Source of the DNA: Oscillatoria sp. FACHB-1406
GTDB lineage: Bacteria > Cyanobacteriota > Cyanobacteriia > Cyanobacteriales > Spirulinaceae
Assembly (NCBI RefSeq): GCF_014698145.1
Contig: NZ_JACJSM010000003.1
Location: 248,001-312,000, forward strand
DNA: 64,000 bases
Reading direction: 5' to 3'
A model generated the notes under the pieces. It was not told the DNA's origin. It saw nothing but the letters and a program-made list of their open reading frames with translations, and did no database searches. Of the stretch, positions 5,098 through 15,247 are shown piece after piece; within the stretch, counting starts at the first letter, position 1; each line of letters starts with the position of its first letter. Both the position numbers and the translations under genes were made by a program.

Positions 5098-7449
5098 TCA
5101 TAATTTCCCAACCAGCCAATAAGTATCCATTTTGCCTTTCCCTTTAATTGGAATTTGACCGCGATACTCAAATTTGTAGTGCGATCGCAAACTATCCCGA
5201 ACCGCTTGCGTCACCTGAATGCGTCCGGGAACGCCATGAGATTCCATACGGCTGGCAATATTCACCGTATCGCCCCAAAGATCGTAGATGAATTTTTTAA
5301 GGCCGATCACGCCAGCAACGACCGGGCCGGTGTGAATGCCAACGCGAATGCTTAAATTGAAGTTGCGATCGCCGTTAAACTGCGCGATCGCATCCTGAAC
5401 GTCGAGGGCGAAATCAGCCACCGCTGCAATATTATTAGGATGGTGTTCGGGAATGCCGCTTACAAGCATATAAGCATCGCCAATCGTCTTAATCTTCTCG
5501 AGTTTGTGCAATTCCGTCAGGCGATCGAACTGGGAAAAAATATCGTTCAATAAGTTCACCAACTCCAGCGGCGATAATTCGCCCGCAATCCCCGTAAACC
5601 CTACGATATCGGCAAATAAAACGGTAGCTCTATCGAATTTTTCGGCAATGGTTCGATCGTTGAGCTTTAGTTTCGCCGCGATTTTAGCCGGAAGAATATT
5701 TAACAATAACCGTTCTGCCCGCTGCTGTTGGTCTCGCAAAGCAAGTTCGGTAGCAAGGCGTTGGGTGATATCGCGAAACATCGCCTGAATCGCAATCTCT
5801 TCCCCTTTGCCCTGCTTGCTACTAATACTCCCTTCAATCTCGATCCGTCGATTGGCAATAGTCAGGAGCGTCGTTCGCATTTGTTCGATTCTTTCGCCGT
5901 ACAAAGCTCGGCGGAAGTTCTTAGCAAACTCAATCCTTTGCCCGAGCGGCAGCAGATCGAACATCGATCTTTGTTTGAGTTCTTGCCAACTGTAACCGAG
6001 GGCTTGCTGACAAGCGCGATTGGCATACAGAAATCGACCGCGAACGTCAAACGACCAAATTAAATCGCTCGCGTTTTCAAACAAATCGCGATAGCGTTCC
6101 TCGCTTTCTGCTAAAGCTGCTTCTGCTCGCTTGCGCTGAAAAAATTGTGCTAAGTTCGTTCCGATCGTATCCAGAATTTGCAGCAGATTTTCATCGGGGG
6201 ATTTAGCTTCGGAATTGAGAAAGAGCATGACCCCATACTTATCTTGTCCGCTTTTAATCGGAATCGCTAGCATCAAGGAATGTTGCGATCCCGCAGGGCT
6301 TCGCGAAGCGGCACGCGCGTTGAGAGGCATCTCCTGCGAACCTCCATCGAGGATCGAGAGAATGCACCATTGGGGCTGACCGGACTGCCAAGCATAACGG
6401 GCTAAATTTTCGCGCTCGGTGTTCGTTTGCGCTTGTAGTTGCCAAGTGCGGACTTCCTCCGACGGTTTCTGCCAAGTTGCAACGGGTTTTAAGTCGAGCG
6501 AAATTTCGGATTCGACCAACCACATTTCTCCAGTCAGCCAATCTAAATTTTCGCAGAGCGTTTCGAGAATGGGCTGTAGAGCGAGTTCGACGCTAGCAGA
6601 GGTGGATAGGATTTGAGCGACTCGATACTGGGCGGCAACTCGTCGCTGAGCCTGCCGAGTGGCGGTAATATCGCGACCGATGTAGAGAAATTCGCTGCCG
6701 CTGTGGGGATCCGCAGCGATGGAAGAGCAAGAAAAGGCGACCAAAAGTTGTTTGCCGGTTTTGGTCGAACAGTGCATCTCCAGTTCTCGAATGGATTCCG
6801 AGCGCGTTGTTAGCGACTGATGCAGTTCCTCAAAAACGAAGCGTTCGTCAGTAATAATGCGGGTAATCGGCTGACCGATCGATTCGGAGCGAGCGTAGCC
6901 GAACCACTCTAAGGCGGAGCGATTGACGGTTTTGATGATGCCATCGGCTCGCACGACGAAAAGCGCATCGGCGATCGATTCGATGACTTTATGTATATAT
7001 TCGTGAGAAGCCTCGAGGGAGGCCATCATCAAGCTCATTTCGTTCGTGCTTTGCACGAGAGTTTGCTCGAGGTTCATGCGATCGCTGACGTTCTCGAGGG
7101 TTGCGAGCAGTTTGGGGGGCGACTCGCAGTGCGCTCGCAAACACACGATTTGTAAGTCTAAGTAGGCAACTGTCCCCTGTACGGACGGTTCATGAAACGT
7201 CCCGAGCGATCGCGCGATCGCTCTAATCTCAAATCGCTCGCTTTCGCCTCGAACGATCGCTTCAAGGCAATCTTCAGCACCGAACAGTTCCGGAAAGCCC
7301 GAGCGGATATCTTCCCCCGCTCGTAACAGTTCCGGGGACTCGACAAAGCTACAAGCGCGTGCTGATGTTCTAACAACTCGCAGTTCGGGATCCAGTAAGA
7401 CGTACTCAATCCCTCGGGCGGATAAGAGTTCCTCTATAGCTTCGTGCAT
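5098..7449 (-). CDS. Class III adenylate cyclase with PAS and GAF sensor domains
   Basis: 783 residues without evident membrane helices. A PAS-like N-terminus is followed by a PAS domain (about 150-270), a GAF domain (about 290-440), a second PAS (about 455-570) and a C-terminal class III cyclase domain (about 600-780). In the cyclase the metal-binding Asp residues lie in FADIVGF (about D614) and GDAYM (about D658). The purine-selecting Lys (KIKTIGDAY, about K654) and Asp (DLWGDTVN, about D723), and the catalytic Asn and Arg (TVNIASRM), are all present, which predicts ATP rather than GTP. A REP-like DNA insert (6285-6312) adds about ten residues to the GAF domain. It probably makes cAMP in response to a small ligand or light; the signal is unknown. 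Confidence 0.9.
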   Translation of the reverse strand: MHEAIEELLSARGIEYVLLDPELRVVRTSARACSFVESPELLRAGEDIRSGFPELFGAEDCLEAIVRGESERFEIRAIARSLGTFHEPSVQGTVAYLDLQIVCLRAHCESPPKLLATLENVSDRMNLEQTLVQSTNEMSLMMASLEASHEYIHKVIESIADALFVVRADGIIKTVNRSALEWFGYARSESIGQPITRIITDERFVFEELHQSLTTRSESIRELEMHCSTKTGKQLLVAFSCSSIAADPHSGSEFLYIGRDITATRQAQRRVAAQYRVAQILSTSASVELALQPILETLCENLDWLTGEMWLVESEISLDLKPVATWQKPSEEVRTWQLQAQTNTERENLARYAWQSGQPQWCILSILDGGSQEMPLNARAASRSPAGSQHSLMLAIPIKSGQDKYGVMLFLNSEAKSPDENLLQILDTIGTNLAQFFQRKRAEAALAESEERYRDLFENASDLIWSFDVRGRFLYANRACQQALGYSWQELKQRSMFDLLPLGQRIEFAKNFRRALYGERIEQMRTTLLTIANRRIEIEGSISSKQGKGEEIAIQAMFRDITQRLATELALRDQQQRAERLLLNILPAKIAAKLKLNDRTIAEKFDRATVLFADIVGFTGIAGELSPLELVNLLNDIFSQFDRLTELHKLEKIKTIGDAYMLVSGIPEHHPNNIAAVADFALDVQDAIAQFNGDRNFNLSIRVGIHTGPVVAGVIGLKKFIYDLWGDTVNIASRMESHGVPGRIQVTQAVRDSLRSHYKFEYRGQIPIKGKGKMDTYWLVGKL
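6285..6312. repeat. REP-like short repeat inside a coding sequence
   Basis: GCGATCCCGCAGGGCTTCGC followed by GAAGCGGC. It contains complementary arms and is read in frame as part of AASRSPAGSQ in the GAF domain of the adenylate cyclase. A relative sits at 22836-22867, also inside a gene. Confidence 0.6.
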
Positions 7450-7722
7450 AATTGCTCGTAGGGATAGATGCAGTTCGGGTTCGCTAACTGAAAAATACTA
7501 CTTCTATTTTTCCCTAAAATTTGCATTTTTTAGCTTCAAAAACTAGAAAAAATACAGAAAAGTTGAGAAATTTTGATAAAAGCTCTCCTGTATTTTTAGA
7601 GATCGATCTCCGTAATTACACGGCAGATTCGGGTTCAGACTCGATAATAGTTTTTCTCGGTTCAGAGAAATTAAGGATTAACCATCCATTGGATTATCCG
7701 CATTCTTCAAGATTTACCCGTT

Positions 7723-8265
7723 TCAGGAGGCGGATAAAGGCTGGAGCATTTTGCGAGCGAGAGTATCAAAAATTCCTTGGACGTTTTCTCCCGTTTTAGC
7801 TGAAGTCTTGTAAAGGGCTAAAACCTGCTCCGTTTGTTGGTTGCGCGCCAGTTCTGCAAGCTTCTCTAACTTTTGAGGTTCGACCAAATCGGTCTTATTC
7901 AACGTGAGGATAATGATTCCCTTCGGATTAACCGAGAGAAAAAGTTTAATATGGTCGCAGAAGCGTTCGATTGTTTCCGGGCGAGTGACATCGCCTACGA
8001 TTAATGCTCCTTTTGCACCTTGTAGGTAACTCGGCGCGATCGACTTAAATTTTGTGTGACCTTCGAGATCCCAAATTAACAACTTAACGTTCTTAGGAGT
8101 TCCAGAGCGATCGCCGATCGCTTCCACAACTTTATGAGAAATCTTCACGCCAACCGTAGAGAGATACTGATCGCTAAACTGCCCATCAACAAAGCGGCGA
8201 ATCAGACTGGTTTTGCCCACGCCAAAGTCGCCGATCGTACACATTTTTTGAGAAATTATTGTCAT
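7723..8265 (-). CDS. Ras/Rab-like small GTPase
   Basis: 180 residues, a single G domain. The P-loop is GDFGVGKTS (residues 12-20), switch I carries YLSTVGVKI (Thr near 37), G3 is WDLEGHTKF (Asp66, Gly69), G4 is NKTD (123-126) and G5 is TSAKTG (154-159). This is the arrangement of Rab and MglA-type GTPases. The position of the catalytic Gln of Ras/Rab is His70 here, which may mean slow intrinsic hydrolysis and dependence on a partner. There is no lipidation motif at the C-terminus. It starts 6 bp after the end of the OmpA/roadblock-like gene, so the two are almost certainly co-transcribed and likely functional partners. Confidence 0.9.
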   Translation of the reverse strand: MTIISQKMCTIGDFGVGKTSLIRRFVDGQFSDQYLSTVGVKISHKVVEAIGDRSGTPKNVKLLIWDLEGHTKFKSIAPSYLQGAKGALIVGDVTRPETIERFCDHIKLFLSVNPKGIIILTLNKTDLVEPQKLEKLAELARNQQTEQVLALYKTSAKTGENVQGIFDTLARKMLQPLSAS

Positions 8266-8271
8266 TAAAGT

Positions 8272-10569
8272 TTAATTAACTGCATTAGGGTCGAGAGTGG
8301 GCGCGAGCACTTCAAAACGAACGCATTGTCTCAGCCAATCCGGAGCGCTTGTCCCGACATCCGAAGGCCCGCCCGTCAAACCTCGGACTTGCAAGCGATC
8401 GCTAGTAATTCCTCGTTCGAGCAGAGCGGTGCGAACCGCAGTTGCTCGCCGAAACCCGAGTTGGGACGAAATTTCTCCTTCTGAAGGCGGACTGTAACCA
8501 ATAATCTCGATTTGTAAGTCGGGATACTGGTTCAAGATACGAACGACTGACTCAATTTTAACTTTAAGGTCGATCGATTGGATTTGAGTGCTGTCTTTCG
8601 CAAAGTAAATTCTTGTGGAAATATTGATGCTGGGGAGGCCGAAGGCCGTGCTGACATTGCTAATGCCCGGAATTTGCTCGAAGGCTCGCGTCGCTTTTTG
8701 GATCGCTGCCGTACTTTTTACCATCCCTGAAAGAATTACTTTACCGCGAGTTGGCAGTTCGCCGGTATTCGGTAAGGTTTCGTAACGAGCGTTAATCGCC
8801 ATACCGGATTCTTGGTTGAGGAGCGCTTCGACTCGCTTGACTTCGGCACGAACGCGATCGGGATCGGGGGGGATATCGACGGCTAAGATGCGATTGTTGA
8901 GTTGCTGCTTGGAAGCGAGGAAGGGAGTAACAAGGGTAGTGGCTTTGTCGCGCAGAGTCGGGCTGGGAACTCGCCCTTGTAGGGTTAATTGCTCGCGGTT
9001 GGCTCTGACGTTAAAGCGATAGACGGAGAGTTCGGGGTTGTCGTAAAGCGCCGAGAGGACGCTTCTTTCGAGTTGGTGGTTGAAGGCTTGCTGGCGTTGG
9101 TGCAAGTGCCAAGGGATGCCAATCGCGAGGGCAATCGCTCCAGCAACTCCGAGGAGCATCCAAGGAATCGCTTTCGGTTTTACCGATTTGTCCTCAATTT
9201 CCATTAAGCCTTCGATTAAGGGCGGAACGGCTTCGGGGAGGGTATCGGGATCGCCGTCAAAATCTTCGATCGCGTCGCCGTATTTCTGGATAATATAGCC
9301 CAGCGTGCCGCGAACTTTTTCAATGAAATCCGATGGCGGAGTTCCTTGGATGACAACGGCGAGATAGCAGTAGCCTGCGACTTCCAACAAAATTTTGGAA
9401 TCGCCGTATTCAATTTCGTTGAGTTCGGATTCGCCGGACGGGGCGATACATTCTTTGACAAAACTCCGAATCGCCGTGAGCATTCCGCCGATCATTTCGG
9501 CATCCAGGGTAAGCGCGTCGGAGAGGTGAGTTTGGGCAATGACGAGTCCAGAACTCTTGTGAATCAGGAAGACGGCTTTGATGCGCGCGGGCATCGATTC
9601 GGTGAAGATTAGTTCGGCTTCGGATACGCCCTGAAGCCGAGCGCGAACTTTGCGTTTGACGCTTTCGGAGGTAAGAGTTTCGGAGAGTTTGCGATTGATC
9701 TCTTGAATCGCTTCGGCGATGTAGCGCTTGATGATACCGCCGATGATGGGGTAGAGGGCATCAACCATTGCATCGCGTTCGAGTTCGACTTGCTGCTTGA
9801 TGGCGCGTCCCATTTCCGGGGCGAGGACTTGAGCGATGGAGTTGCGATCGAGTCGGACTTGTTCGCGGATTGCCGCTCCCATTGCCGGCGCGATCGCTTT
9901 CACGATTTCATGAGGTGCATCTCTGATTTCTTGGGAGATGGCTGCCGGGATGATTTTGGCCAGAACGCCACTCATGGCATCTCGATCTTGTCGGGCGCGC
10001 TGGTCGATGATGCCGTCGGCAATGGGATATAAGGCCTGACAAACGTCTTCCCGGGATTGCTGGACTTTGCGATCGAGCAGTTCGGCAACCACCGGCATTA
10101 GCAGTTCGATTAAAGCATCGGAATCGGAGATTTGATGGTGGAGAGTGCGGATTTGGTGGCTGAGTTGCTTGACTTGTTCTTCTGACTCATTGTCGGAGCC
10201 GACAATGAGTTCGCGCAACTGCGCGAAAATTTCCGATTCGGGATCGCCGTCCGCGTTAGGAGCGGGCGGGTTAGTGGATTCGGGCGCGAGGGTGCTTTGA
10301 GGTGCGATCGCGCTTTCCGGTTCGACGGTAGGGAGGGCGGCTTCGACCTCAACCCAATTGACAACGAGATCGTCTGCCGCTTGCGATCGCGATTCCGAGG
10401 TTGGATCGGAGGTCGGGGAACTGTCAGCCGCTTCTGGGAGGGTTGAGGGTTTTGGGGACGAGTTTCCTTCAATTAAATTAAACAGAAGCGAGAGTTGATC
10501 TTCTAGCTCCTCGGCTGACTCGTCCCTTGAGGAGCGAGGTGGTTCGGAAAAGCGATCTGATAAAGTCAT
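8272..10569 (-). CDS. Membrane protein: helical repeats, roadblock-like domain, TM helix, OmpA-like domain
   Basis: 765 residues. Residues 1-110 are acidic and low in complexity. About 150-290 contains several roughly 28-residue helical repeats of the type ALYPIxxGIIxxxxxxxRDAM. About 310-440 (KAVFLIHKSSGLVIAQ, later ILLEVAGYCYLAVVIQG) looks like a roadblock/LC7 fold, the fold of MglB-type GTPase partners. One membrane helix lies near 462-480 (WMLLGVAGAIALAIGI). Next come BON-like segments (about 490-630) and an OmpA-like peptidoglycan-binding domain (about 640-755; IYFAKDSTQIQ, IEIIGYSPPSEGE, RRATAVRTALLERGI). It lies 6 bp before the GTPase gene and 69 bp after a coiled-coil gene. The roadblock call is by pattern and position, and is inference. 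Confidence 0.8.
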   Translation of the reverse strand: MTLSDRFSEPPRSSRDESAEELEDQLSLLFNLIEGNSSPKPSTLPEAADSSPTSDPTSESRSQAADDLVVNWVEVEAALPTVEPESAIAPQSTLAPESTNPPAPNADGDPESEIFAQLRELIVGSDNESEEQVKQLSHQIRTLHHQISDSDALIELLMPVVAELLDRKVQQSREDVCQALYPIADGIIDQRARQDRDAMSGVLAKIIPAAISQEIRDAPHEIVKAIAPAMGAAIREQVRLDRNSIAQVLAPEMGRAIKQQVELERDAMVDALYPIIGGIIKRYIAEAIQEINRKLSETLTSESVKRKVRARLQGVSEAELIFTESMPARIKAVFLIHKSSGLVIAQTHLSDALTLDAEMIGGMLTAIRSFVKECIAPSGESELNEIEYGDSKILLEVAGYCYLAVVIQGTPPSDFIEKVRGTLGYIIQKYGDAIEDFDGDPDTLPEAVPPLIEGLMEIEDKSVKPKAIPWMLLGVAGAIALAIGIPWHLHQRQQAFNHQLERSVLSALYDNPELSVYRFNVRANREQLTLQGRVPSPTLRDKATTLVTPFLASKQQLNNRILAVDIPPDPDRVRAEVKRVEALLNQESGMAINARYETLPNTGELPTRGKVILSGMVKSTAAIQKATRAFEQIPGISNVSTAFGLPSINISTRIYFAKDSTQIQSIDLKVKIESVVRILNQYPDLQIEIIGYSPPSEGEISSQLGFRRATAVRTALLERGITSDRLQVRGLTGGPSDVGTSAPDWLRQCVRFEVLAPTLDPNAVN

Positions 10570-10638
10570 CGCGGCTTATCCCCTCGGGCAACGACACCAC
10601 TGGCTCGCATTTGAAGGCTTAAAGTTTCTCAGTTCGAG

Positions 10639-11229
10639 CTATTCTGACATAATCTCTGCGGAAAGTTCGGGATCGACTGCCGCCTTGAGTGCCGGAACGA
10701 AGTCTTCTCCCCTCAAACGCATTCCCAATTCAAATAAGATGGAAGCCATATCTTCTCTGGCTAGTTTACCATCCCGCAGCATTCCGAAACGGCTGTCGAG
10801 TTCTTCAAAGACTTGGACTCGCAGGGCGCGGATGTCATCTTGAAGCTTTTCGCGATTATCGGAGAATTGGGTGCGGAGCGTATCGGTTTTTTGGTCGAGG
10901 GCTTCGTCGATCGCAGCTAGCTGGTTGCTGAACTTTTGGTCGAGCCGTTCTACTTGTTGGCGGCGTTCGGAGAGTTCTTCTTGAGTATGGGTGGCTAAGG
11001 ATTTGAGGCGTTTTTCTAAGGCGTTCGTTGCCGATTGAATTTCGAGGCGAAGCGAGCTTTTGATATCGTCAAGACGAGCGCTGAGGTCTTGGTGCAAAAG
11101 GGAGAGTTCGGATTCAATTTGCGAGAAGCGACCTTCGTAGTCTCGCAGTTGGGAGCCTACCAAAATTTCTCTGATTTTATCGAGATTGCCGAGGCGATCG
11201 CGCATTTCTTCTCTGCTCATATCACTCAT
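10639..11229 (-). CDS. Coiled-coil protein, first gene of the GTPase operon
   Basis: 196 residues, almost wholly helical and charged. Heptad-rich sequence runs from about residue 25 to 150 (SQIESELSLLHQDLSARLDD, later REKLQDDIRALRVQVFEELD), with a conserved-looking C-terminal cap (ARED, ILFELGMRLRGEDF). There is no membrane helix or signal peptide, so it is probably cytoplasmic. The gap to the OmpA/roadblock-like gene is 69 bp, and the three genes share a strand. It may be an oligomeric scaffold for the GTPase module. I do not recognise a named family. Confidence 0.8.
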   Translation of the reverse strand: MSDMSREEMRDRLGNLDKIREILVGSQLRDYEGRFSQIESELSLLHQDLSARLDDIKSSLRLEIQSATNALEKRLKSLATHTQEELSERRQQVERLDQKFSNQLAAIDEALDQKTDTLRTQFSDNREKLQDDIRALRVQVFEELDSRFGMLRDGKLAREDMASILFELGMRLRGEDFVPALKAAVDPELSAEIMSE

Positions 11230-11412: not shown

Positions 11413-12573
11413 TCAGCTTTTCGCGCGCAACTCCTCGATCGCGTCGCGTTCTGGGGGTTCTCGGTGGGGCGGAATTTGCCGCGCGTCGGTAATTAGCCAA
11501 TCGAGGGCGGCAGCTTGCAAATCGATGGAAGCTCCGCTTTTATCGACGCAGTAGCGACCGAAGACCAGTTTATCGACCAGTCTAACCCCCGCTCCCAAAC
11601 GCGAGTATTCAAAAATGACACTGTTATCCACTGTGGCATCTTTACAAATCCAGCAGTTGGGACCGATCATCGTTGGGCCGACAATGGTCGCCCCATCTTC
11701 AATCCGAGTCATGCCGCCAATATAAACCGGCCCTTGAATCGAAATTTTATCCCAGTTGGCTGCAACGTTAAGACCGGTGTAAATTCCGGGCGCGATTTCG
11801 GTTCCGGGAATGGACACATTTTTAATCTCGCCGGTTAAAACGCCGCGAACCGCCTGCCAGTAGTCGGGGACTTTTCCGATATCGACCCATTCAAAGTCCA
11901 TTGGGATGCCGTAGAAGGGGGCTTCCATCTCGACCAGTTTGGGAAAGAGTTCGCTACCGAGGTCGTATTCTTGGTTGGGGGGAATGTAGTCGATGATTTC
12001 CGGCTCGAAGATATAAATCCCGGTATTGATCTCGGTACTGAGCGCTTCTTCAATGCTGGGTTTTTCTTGGAAGGCTGTAATGCGCCCGTCCTCGTTAGTG
12101 ACGACAACACCGTAGCTAGAAACCTGGTCTTTGGGGACGGTTTTTGTAACAATACTCGCGATCGCACCTTTTTCTTTATGAGCTTTAACCGCCGCCGTTA
12201 AATCTAAATCGATCAACGCATCGCCGCAGAGGACAATAAAGGTATCGTCGAAGAAAGGGTTGAAATCTTGAACGCGTCTCAGACCGCCCGCAGACCCCAA
12301 AGCCTCCCCAATCAATCGACCGTCTTCAATGCGTCCTTCAAACGAATAAGCAATGTGAACCCCAAAGCGCTGCCCGTCGCGGAAATAACTTTCAAGTTCT
12401 TCAGCGAGATGGCTGACATTGACCATCACTTCGTTGAAGCCATGCGCGCGCAGTAACTCCAGCAAAAACTCCATCACGGGTTTTTGTAAAATCGGAATCA
12501 AAGGCTTGGGAATCGTATAAGTAATCGGACGAACGCGCGTTCCCTTCCCAGCCGCCAAAATCATGGCCTTCAT
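11413..12573 (-). CDS. Sugar-1-phosphate nucleotidyltransferase (NDP-sugar pyrophosphorylase)
   Basis: 386 residues. The N-terminal Rossmann-like domain starts MKAMILAAGKGTRVRPITYT, the signature G-x-G-T-R-x(3)-T loop, followed by PKPLIPI and the metal Asp in VLCGDALID near 112. The C-terminal part (about 255-350; TEIAPGIYTG, VYIGGMTRIEDGATIVGP) is a left-handed beta helix as in glucose-1-phosphate and mannose-1-phosphate nucleotidyltransferases. It makes an activated sugar for polysaccharide or glycan synthesis. The exact nucleotide and sugar cannot be read from motifs. It stands alone, 183 bp upstream of the coiled-coil gene on the same strand. Confidence 0.88.
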   Translation of the reverse strand: MKAMILAAGKGTRVRPITYTIPKPLIPILQKPVMEFLLELLRAHGFNEVMVNVSHLAEELESYFRDGQRFGVHIAYSFEGRIEDGRLIGEALGSAGGLRRVQDFNPFFDDTFIVLCGDALIDLDLTAAVKAHKEKGAIASIVTKTVPKDQVSSYGVVVTNEDGRITAFQEKPSIEEALSTEINTGIYIFEPEIIDYIPPNQEYDLGSELFPKLVEMEAPFYGIPMDFEWVDIGKVPDYWQAVRGVLTGEIKNVSIPGTEIAPGIYTGLNVAANWDKISIQGPVYIGGMTRIEDGATIVGPTMIGPNCWICKDATVDNSVIFEYSRLGAGVRLVDKLVFGRYCVDKSGASIDLQAAALDWLITDARQIPPHREPPERDAIEELRAKS

Positions 12574-13795: not shown

Positions 13796-14428
13796 TCAGT
13801 AGCAATATTTACCGCTATCATTCGCTTTCGGCTGCTCCCGAGCTAGGCGCATCGCTCCAATAACTGTCGAAACGATCACGCAGCGCTTGAGCTTGCCGCC
13901 CTTTTCCGGTTGTAACGCGATTCGTCCCAAAGCTTGCAGCGAAGTCGAACCGCACTCATCGTCAATATCGTAAACCGGACAACCATGACGGTTAAAAAGA
14001 ACTCGTCCTTGTTCGTTGACTGTTCTAATCGTCGTTTCTGGGTCGATGCGAACGCCACGCTCTAAATTTTGCCAATATGCCTCATTATTGAGAACCGTCG
14101 CTGGAATAAACTCACCGTTGCTCGCCAGATGAATCGCCCACTGAACGCGGTTGTTCTTTTCCCGGAGACTGAACTGCCAAGTCAGCTTATCGCGCGTCGC
14201 ATTGCTCTTCGCCGCCATCAGCGCTTGAAAAACCTCACTGCGCGACTTATTAAGTTGGTGGCGCTGCACGAAAGCCAGCCAACCCGGAACCGCAATCCCC
14301 GCTACGATCCCGATGATAACAACGACCACTAACAATTCGATTAACGTGATGCCGATCGCATCTGCCGATCTCACTTTAGCCGCATGACTCGCCGCCGCTA
14401 GCAAGCGTAACTTCAAGGTAGGTTGCAT
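13796..14428 (-). CDS. Type IV pilin-like / pseudopilin protein
   Basis: 210 residues from ATG at 14428; an upstream in-frame ATG at 14461 gives 11 unconserved residues. A prepilin-peptidase site is visible as G followed by ITLIELLVVVVIIGIVAGIA, with Glu at +5 of the mature protein. The mature part contains two Cys pairs (HGCPVYDIDDECG; KRCVIV...KYCY). It is the last of five minus-strand genes running from hpsA, 69 bp after another pseudopilin. It probably contributes to the pilus-like apparatus that drives polysaccharide secretion and gliding. The stop codon abuts a family B element. Confidence 0.82.
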   Translation of the reverse strand: MQPTLKLRLLAAASHAAKVRSADAIGITLIELLVVVVIIGIVAGIAVPGWLAFVQRHQLNKSRSEVFQALMAAKSNATRDKLTWQFSLREKNNRVQWAIHLASNGEFIPATVLNNEAYWQNLERGVRIDPETTIRTVNEQGRVLFNRHGCPVYDIDDECGSTSLQALGRIALQPEKGGKLKRCVIVSTVIGAMRLAREQPKANDSGKYCY

Positions 14429-14497
14429 TATCCCCTGACTCTGATACAACGGGTTATACAACCTATCATTCCCACCGCCGTTAAAAAATCAACTATC

Positions 14498-15247
14498 TTA
14501 CGGACAGCCCTCTGCATTGCTGTTCGCATCGTACTGGCGACGGCCGGGAGTCAGCCCGCCCAGGAGCGTCCGCACCATTACGCAACGTTTCGAGCCTGGA
14601 ACTGCTTCGGTGGATCCTGTGCCTTTCGGCTGCGCGAGAACGATACTCAAAGTGCTTTTGAGAGGATCGGGATCGTCGGTTCCTAAACTCACAGGTTCTT
14701 TAAGTACCCCCATCTCATCAAACGTAATACTCCGAATTTCATCATTTTGCTCTTTAATGACCTCGATCTTTGCATTTTCAATCGTATTACTCCCTTTTTT
14801 CAGATTTGTTAAAACCAAAACTTGACCGCTCTTTAATCCAATATCTTTCCCCAATCTTCCTGAACTCCAATAAGAGTTCATCGCTGCATCAGGTGAAGAC
14901 TTTAATGACCCCGAACTTTCGTAAAGAAGTCTAGTCGGGTGAATTGCCGCTTGAGGTAGTTTTGTGTCGGGATCGATGCGAAAACTAAGACTATAATCCA
15001 ACTTTTTCTTTTTCGCTTCGCTTTGAGCTTCTCTGACTTTTTGAAGAACTTCATTATAAGTAGCATTAACACGGCGTTGTTGCATAAAGCCAAGCCACCC
15101 TGGAGCAGCAATAGCAGCAATAACGCCGATAATAACAACAACAACTAATAACTCAATTAGAGTAAATCCACTCTTTTCTTTCGATTCAGGAGCGGCACGA
15201 GTTGAAAGCAAGAGTTGTTTAAAAAGTTTATGCTTGAGCAAGCGCAT
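14498..15247 (-). CDS. Type IV pilin-like / pseudopilin protein
   Basis: 249 residues. A positively charged leader (MRLLKHKLFKQLL) precedes a prepilin-peptidase site G-FTLIELLVVVVIIGVIAAIA near residues 27-47, with Glu+5. The mature domain is hydrophilic, with paired Cys near the C-terminus (SKRCVMVRTL...NAEGCP) like its neighbour at 13796-14428. The two probably arose by duplication: they share GWLGFMQQ/GWLAFVQR after the helix. It lies 105 bp downstream of hpsC. In other cyanobacteria the pseudopilin after hpsC is called hpsD, but I cannot be sure of a one-to-one match. Confidence 0.82.
   Translation of the reverse strand: MRLLKHKLFKQLLLSTRAAPESKEKSGFTLIELLVVVVIIGVIAAIAAPGWLGFMQQRRVNATYNEVLQKVREAQSEAKKKKLDYSLSFRIDPDTKLPQAAIHPTRLLYESSGSLKSSPDAAMNSYWSSGRLGKDIGLKSGQVLVLTNLKKGSNTIENAKIEVIKEQNDEIRSITFDEMGVLKEPVSLGTDDPDPLKSTLSIVLAQPKGTGSTEAVPGSKRCVMVRTLLGGLTPGRRQYDANSNAEGCP

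Follow-up and report, generated by a model that had tools for sequence, protein, structure and literature searches.

How is a small Ras-like GTPase controlled when its gene lies directly behind that of a predicted membrane-spanning protein with an OmpA-like domain, and what might it control in turn? This question is raised by a group of genes in Oscillatoria sp. FACHB-1406 (NCBI RefSeq assembly GCF_014698145.1, contig NZ_JACJSM010000003.1, positions 248,001 to 312,000 of the forward strand); the whole stretch of 64,000 nucleotides is referred to below as the window. An original prediction, made from the sequence alone, had seen in three of these genes a coiled-coil protein, a large roadblock-like/transmembrane/OmpA protein and a Ras-like GTPase, together suggesting a switch anchored to the cell wall. 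Here, the middle domain of the large protein is predicted to adopt a longin fold, sister of the roadblock, and we somewhat favour a reading in which the set is an envelope-to-cytoplasm relay: the longin would set the nucleotide state of the GTPase, and the GTPase would drive a PAS-fused output enzyme.

Organization and identity of the gene set

The three co-directional genes were found on the minus strand as described, the last two separated by 6 bp (8266-8271), and a fourth gene, encoding a cyclase, lies 273 bp beyond the GTPase gene. All four are intact, with open frames from start through stop. Promoter- and terminator-like sites are fewer than the shuffled mean. The genes, and the parts of the large protein, are as follows.

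10639-11229, minus strand: CC, a coiled-coil protein of 196 amino acids, predicted cytoplasmic (open reading frame list, Pfam, homologue alignment)
8272-10569, minus strand: envelope protein of 765 amino acids, with helical repeats, predicted longin domain, one transmembrane helix, BON and OmpA in that order (Pfam, model, hydropathy)
9700-10188, minus strand: helical-repeat region, residues about 128-290 (homologue alignment)
9184-9591, minus strand: predicted longin-like domain, residues 327-462, unrecognised by Pfam (AlphaFold2 model, Foldseek, VIA-align)
9109-9171, minus strand: single predicted transmembrane helix, residues about 467-487 (hydropathy)
8635-9072, minus strand: BON region at residues about 500-645, on the predicted periplasmic side (two Pfam BON stretches, the best at 608-640)
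8380-8607, minus strand: OmpA-like domain, residues 655-730 (Pfam, PDB matches, alignment)
7723-8265, minus strand: Rup-type Ras/Rab-like GTPase of 180 amino acids (Pfam Ras, G motifs)
5098-7449, minus strand: fourth gene, 783 amino acids, with an N-terminal PAS-Q domain (a PAS domain with a fixed glutamine motif), PAS, GAF, PAS and a class III nucleotide cyclase (Pfam, profile search)

The coiled-coil, OmpA and Ras-like characters predicted for the three proteins were borne out. The GTPase matches Pfam Ras at 5.7e-29; the large protein matches BON at 7.9e-10 (two stretches) and OmpA at 8.5e-7, both above cut-off, and has one hydrophobic segment. CC is coiled-coil-like, with no family above its own Pfam cut-off among the 25 listed, and its ends are conserved (about MRxRLGN..QIRDxLFG near the N-terminus and K.SR.D.AE.LFE near the C-terminus). 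The BON domains, the cyclase as fourth member and the prior publication of the gene set were missing from the original prediction.

Judged by gene content and motifs, the set is a Group 1 Rup system, which has already been described in outline. According to the main text of Wuichet & Søgaard-Andersen (2014; PMC4316618), who described this neighbourhood, it is found in Cyanobacteria and Mesorhizobium and comprises a Rup GTPase, a coiled-coil protein, a protein with a conserved domain, a transmembrane segment and OmpA, and an output with a conserved N-terminal glutamine. The same main text leaves the domain unnamed, gives diguanylate cyclases/phosphodiesterases or histidine kinases as typical outputs, describes the G3 glutamine as lacking and states, as of 2014, that no Rup member had been experimentally characterized; the terms 'adenylate cyclase', 'guanylate cyclase', 'PAS domain' and 'longin' do not occur in it. 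In the window, the GTPase is a stand-alone Ras-superfamily protein below 240 amino acids with the G3 Asp and without the G3 Gln, the coiled-coil and domain-transmembrane-OmpA genes lie beside it, and the output carries an N-terminal glutamine region. We take the longin domain described here to be the conserved domain of unknown function of that paper.

The middle domain of the envelope protein is predicted to be a longin

Structure prediction of the middle region, proposed earlier as a check, returned a longin fold. The AlphaFold2 model, built from residues 285-462 and 29 homologues, shows in order a short helix, b1, b2, a long helix, b3, b4, b5, a long helix and a short helix, that is, the b1-b2-a1-b3-b4-b5-a2-a3 order of the longin domain with an extra helix ahead of b1. 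Its top Foldseek matches are the longins Ykt6, Sec22b and VAMP7 together with adaptor sigma chains, which we take to be longin-like; the highest longin value is that of Sec22b (1ifq_A, TMt 0.72). In VIA-align, used as a second look at the Foldseek matches, Z is 13.3 for VAMP7 and for Sec22b (root-mean-square deviation 2.8 over 125), 12.5 for Ykt6, 11.4 for a Lokiarchaeal longin and 10.0 for Mon1-Ccz1. Weaker Foldseek matches include Rag/Ragulator roadblock chains from rank 17 down and MglB at rank 20 (E 9.7e-4, TMt 0.43). MglB is not among the VIA-align matches listed, which excludes nothing. According to passages of PMC10933270, an extra helix after the long C-terminal one separates longins from roadblocks, while a helix before b1 is a roadblock-like trait; the model carries both.

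Thirty family members gave neither a longin nor a Robl_LC7 match in Pfam, and comparison of the longin family with 11 cyanobacterial Robl_LC7 proteins by hhalign gave probabilities of 0.3% and 0.2%. For residues 327-462, sequence comparison lends no support to either fold. Of the roadblock-like domain that had been placed in the predicted cytoplasmic half, membership of the roadblock/longin superfamily and the accompanying helical repeats stand, but longins match best and no relation to Robl_LC7 was detected in these comparisons.

The GTPase keeps the G3 aspartate

The closest PDB relatives of the GTPase are Rabs. Its G motifs are intact (G1 GDFGVGKTS, G3 WDLEGH, G4 NKTD, G5 TSAK), with His at the position of the catalytic Gln; the Asp of WDLEGH sets it apart from the MglA family, and no Robl_LC7 partner lies alongside. 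Across 119 rows, the G3 catalytic position is His in 59, Ser in 27, Gln in 21, Glu in 8 (6 of them read by eye from divergent rows), Arg in 2, Asn in 1 and unread in 1; identical stretches had been removed, and at least one pair (L141 and L161, both Gln) is still one gene cut differently. The presence of Gln in 21 of the 119 rows qualifies its published lack, the window itself having His.

The gene order is conserved as two pairs

No relatives were retrieved with the full-length protein as query; an alignment query gave 238, of which the best 80 were kept, all with cyanobacterial titles. The large protein was matched in 44 of 59 genomes (own included), three of them (G040, G042 and G055) only in the BON/OmpA part. 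In a set of 30 loci, most have the GTPase downstream and many have CC upstream within short flanks. Among the assessable of 80 named loci, CC immediately precedes the longin gene in 73/79, and the GTPase and the PAS-Q output are present in 73/78 and 67/75, respectively; two of the five loci counted as lacking the GTPase have one beyond the set limits (in L045 on the opposite strand, in L081 about 1.5 kb further along).

In a wider, phylum-level sample (386 genomes), 45 carry the longin and 45 a stand-alone GTPase (cut-off E <1e-40, weaker matches sitting in frames of at least 673 amino acids); both occur in 44 genomes and each alone in one. A Fisher test on this co-occurrence ignores phylogeny and is not to be taken at face value. 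For 45 of the 52 longin matches in these genomes, the GTPase follows on the same strand at a distance of at most 2.5 kb. The pairing is kept where identity to the window has fallen to 26-30% (longin) and 36-42% (GTPase), as in L146 and L148-L153, and five further divergent loci (L177-L181) also retain the trio, with G056 belonging to another family than most of the divergent set. The trio also occurs on two rhizobial plasmids; in Mesorhizobium sp. WSM1497 the order is CC, OmpA, 'Rab family GTPase', cyclase. The recurrence of CC, longin/OmpA and GTPase in this order, both in distant cyanobacteria and on plasmids of rhizobia, goes beyond chance, and the co-occurrence of the three genes, which the original prediction had left to a survey, is confirmed.

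The Mesorhizobium locus (L146, 6888-12205) holds the whole four-gene set, with WDLAGE at G3 (WDxxGE in divergent cyanobacterial copies) and a second cyclase gene downstream on the opposite strand.

Departures from the full order are themselves patterned. An adjacent longin is absent for 5 of 50 GTPases, and in all four of these that were examined a PAS-Q gene lies beside the GTPase; in L183, on the other hand, CC and longin are together with the GTPase elsewhere. Since GTPases without an adjacent longin still adjoin PAS-Q output genes, the set falls into two pairs, one of CC and longin, the other of GTPase and PAS-Q output.

A predicted PAS domain with two glutamines heads interchangeable outputs

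The first 165 residues of the window cyclase have counterparts in the fourth or fifth genes of related loci, at their start or close to it. Two features of this gene are relevant here.

6955-7449, minus strand: PAS-Q domain, residues 1-165 (profile search, alignment, model)
5110-5646, minus strand: adenylate/guanylate cyclase catalytic domain, residues 602-780 (Pfam Guanylate_cyc, 1.9e-66)

Pfam recognises PAS, GAF and Guanylate_cyc in the gene and does not call the N-terminal PAS-Q. The model of this region (pLDDT 92.1) predicts a PAS fold from which a long helix, bearing Q129 and Q133, leads away, and matches PAS structures in Foldseek (3k3c, E 3.7e-7) and VIA-align (Z up to 10.2). Q129 is found in 72/74 and Q133 in 73/74 PAS-Q sequences, the window reading LEQTLVQ; QxxxQ is thus near-invariant in the predicted PAS fold of the output N-terminus. 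In six divergent outputs read by eye, Q-x-x-x-Q stands near the same place in L145, L146, L150, L151 and L152, and L148 has another spacing. One of these two residues would correspond to the conserved glutamine of PMC4316618.

A PDB profile search with the PAS-Q family (A2) gave the PAS domain of Mycobacterium Rv1364c as its best, weak match (E 0.06); the same domain is rank 1 in the fold search. Rv1364c is a phosphatase-kinase regulator of a sigma factor, in line with the SpoIIE-type output described below. In the window's own genome, a match to the PAS-Q profile (L162) was dropped, Pfam identifying a short Trans_reg_C protein.

Sorted by motif, 94 complete output genes comprise 46 kinase-like and 28 class III cyclase-like genes and 20 without a motif-based type, four of which were assigned by Pfam as a hybrid kinase, two GGDEF proteins and a SpoIIE protein. 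Pfam was run on eight examples in all; six are PAS-Q outputs (a histidine kinase, a cyclase, a hybrid histidine kinase, two GGDEF and one SpoIIE), and PAS-Q is common to kinases, cyclases, diguanylate cyclases and a SpoIIE phosphatase. Both rhizobial plasmids carry a cyclase, and a HATPase gene lies downstream in five of the six divergent loci L148-L153 (L151 also has a cyclase). By its Lys/Asp specificity residues (KIKTIGD, YDLWGD) we take the window cyclase to be adenylate-type, and the enzyme probably makes cyclic AMP (cAMP). On the contig L190 (137-9447), three PAS-Q output genes accompany a single Rup GTPase, and one of the three separates it from the longin gene.

The envelope half and its possible binding to the wall

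The last helical repeats of the large protein are 23 residues apart (P at 228, 251 and 274). Hydropathy predicts one transmembrane helix in the window protein; of 125 homologue frames, 99 are likewise predicted to have one. In the OmpA domain, the Asp of the GHxD motif is replaced in the window (GYSPPSEG) and the Arg is retained; these two are presumably the diaminopimelate-binding residues, as in Acinetobacter OmpA. Read from the alignment with the window copy counted, the Arg is kept in 107/107 rows and the Asp in 75/107, a count in which many Nostoc rows with GYSYDxx (Asp one place further) are scored as lost. A motif-search count of the Asp (93/125) was discarded, the search being too loose and counting chance matches. 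The nearest relatives, L003 and L004, share the window's loss. The predicted anchoring of the switch to the cell wall is therefore uncertain here: binding of the sacculus by the window copy is doubtful, although the BON domains may serve instead.

The best longin/OmpA-matching open frames exceed 1,000 amino acids in 10 of 12 family-mates (G001-G012; up to 1293), as against 767 in the window, 864 in G006 and 909 in G008; the extra length of the longer ones falls outside the aligned part.

Other genes in the window and in the genome

A sugar-nucleotidyltransferase gene (11413-12573) lies upstream of CC; among the collected loci only the window has a copy, a weak result as many loci end before this point. 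Two adjacent prepilin-like proteins with the TLIELLVVVVIIG motif are encoded at 13796-15247 on the minus strand, with no link to the GTPase set seen.

Robl_LC7 was matched in 6 of 39 genomes (own included). The only match in the window's genome lies on contig C1, away from the set described here, where a Robl_LC7 protein (5.7e-17), a DUF4388 protein and an MglA-like GTPase are encoded in a row (L163, G000:C1:452000-466000, 6460-8349). A dCache/HAMP hybrid kinase-cyclase is encoded upstream of them.

A candidate relay and its alternatives

Gene order, conservation, domain families, the predicted longin and PAS folds, and outputs that interchange behind a shared N-terminal domain are the established parts from which the favoured relay is built. 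The periplasmic BON/OmpA domains would bind or sense the envelope, and the single transmembrane helix would pass the periplasmic state to the cytoplasmic longin. Seated on the helical repeats and acting together with the coiled-coil protein, a longin that is probably dimeric would bind the Rup GTPase and set its nucleotide state. Roadblock/longin dimers are described, in passages of PMC10933270 and PMC3521125, as GTPase platforms that are mainly guanine nucleotide exchange factors (GEFs); by analogy with eukaryotic longins, and for that reason only, nucleotide exchange appears more likely than a GTPase-activating protein (GAP) activity. GTP-loaded Rup would then engage the PAS-Q N-terminus of the output enzyme, which in this genome, as an adenylate-type cyclase, would change cAMP synthesis. 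An effector role for PAS-Q is suggested because its gene adjoins the GTPase even without a longin and because it heads varied outputs. Topology, the longin-GTPase and GTPase-PAS contacts, the direction of regulation, dimerization and the cAMP product are the parts that we infer.

Several observations weigh against this relay. Confidence in the longin model is moderate (pLDDT 78.5, pTM 0.69, with several core blocks >90), and PDB profile searches with alignments A1 and A5 gave nothing significant, the longin BET5 appearing at E 1.3. The window's OmpA domain lacks the Asp that binds diaminopimelate. There are longin/OmpA paralogues, about 1,200 amino acids long, beside which no GTPase, coiled-coil or PAS-Q gene was found (L154, 6706-10317; L155, 7420-11034; L175, 6056-9715). 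No recognisable output gene was seen downstream in L149 (one of the six loci L148-L153), L158 and L161. Finally, a mirror-tree comparison of 107 trios with a CC, out of 125 and with three loci of incomplete sequence set aside, was non-discriminating: the partial correlation of the GTPase was 0.47 with the longin, 0.48 with the helical repeats and 0.45 with the periplasmic OmpA control. As the control is nearly as high, the mirror-tree says nothing about longin-GTPase contact.

The glutamines of the output invite another explanation, based on a speculation in the 2014 paper (PMC4316618), in which they replace the missing catalytic residue: the output would be the GAP that switches Rup off, and the longin/OmpA protein a scaffold or GEF. 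The near-invariance of Q129 and Q133 and the missing G3 Gln in most GTPases of the set fit this proposal. However, the partners of Gln-bearing GTPases keep QxxxQ in 18 of 20 cases, the other two being fragmentary L110 frames. This absence of a trade-off argues against simple replacement in trans, and the position of the motif, on the exit helix of the PAS fold, makes a role in signalling or dimerization equally likely; we regard the proposal as unlikely.

Slightly less probable still is that the longin is a structural or dimerization module of the envelope protein, with the GTPase under the control of the coiled-coil protein or of its intrinsic activity. Longins without a GTPase role exist (passages of PMC10933270), and both the GTPase-free paralogues and L183 would fit, but in the phylum-wide sample only one of 45 longin-bearing genomes is without the GTPase.

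An MglA/MglB-like module, with a roadblock GAP domain and a GTPase serving polarity, septum placement or motility as first proposed, draws on the kinship of the two folds and on the MglB and Rag/Ragulator matches but is very improbable, given the better longin matches, the lack of a Robl_LC7 match, the retained G3 Asp and Rab-like relatives, the true Robl_LC7-DUF4388-MglA-like set elsewhere in the genome and conserved neighbours that are signalling output enzymes, with no polarity or motility gene seen among them.

Implications

The system is conserved and under-studied. A tentative further possibility is that it represents a bona fide longin and Rab-like GTPase pair, side by side in bacteria, acting as a transmembrane envelope sensor for interchangeable PAS-fused outputs. 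Longin GTPase platforms are seen, in passages of PMC3521125, as a later derivative of MglB-type roadblocks. If the pair is real, the longin as GTPase platform, familiar from eukaryotic Rab GEFs, would exist independently in bacteria, beyond simple descent from MglB roadblocks; the assignment bears on the origin of longin-GTPase pairing in eukaryotic membrane traffic. Together, the longin and PAS assignments, the latter with its fixed motif, turn a described but mute neighbourhood into a concrete, testable pathway.

Comparison with known systems

Relative to Group 1 Rup as published, this analysis adds a predicted longin fold for the conserved domain, a predicted PAS fold for the output N-terminus, the cyclase output, the presence of the G3 Gln in 21/119 rows, the structure of the locus as two pairs and a testable pathway. 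A literature search on Rup GTPases gave no laboratory study of the gene set, PMC4316618 being the only relevant paper that it listed. By title, abstract opening or passage, no longin assignment to the system was found, subscription papers and preprints lying mostly outside the search; a table in PMC4917890 lists a lumped 'Longin/Roadblock' as present in Bacteria, which weighs against novelty.

Actinobacterial conservons (Cvn), a comparison made in PMC4316618, likewise combine a GTPase operon with membrane and signalling components, but theirs are an MglB-like CvnB, an MglA-like CvnD and a histidine kinase, whereas here a predicted longin, Rup and variable outputs are found. MglA-MglB of Myxococcus also pairs a small GTPase with a roadblock/longin-superfamily protein; the window GTPase differs in keeping the G3 Asp that MglA lacks, and its partner in having longins as best match, a transmembrane/OmpA fusion and signalling enzymes nearby. 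Rv0899 is among the PDB matches of the large protein. BON-OmpA proteins such as Rv0899/ArfA share the order transmembrane helix, BON, OmpA, whereas the helical repeats and the predicted longin on the cytoplasmic side are found in the window protein and are not known from them. The longin-based Rab GEF platforms TRAPP, Mon1-Ccz1 and Fuzzy-Inturned, chains of all three of which are among the structural matches, share with the window set the combination of a longin and a Rab-like GTPase. In contrast to these platforms, the window protein is bacterial, predicted to span the membrane and fused to BON and OmpA, and its gene stands in an operon-like row with that of the GTPase on which it would act.

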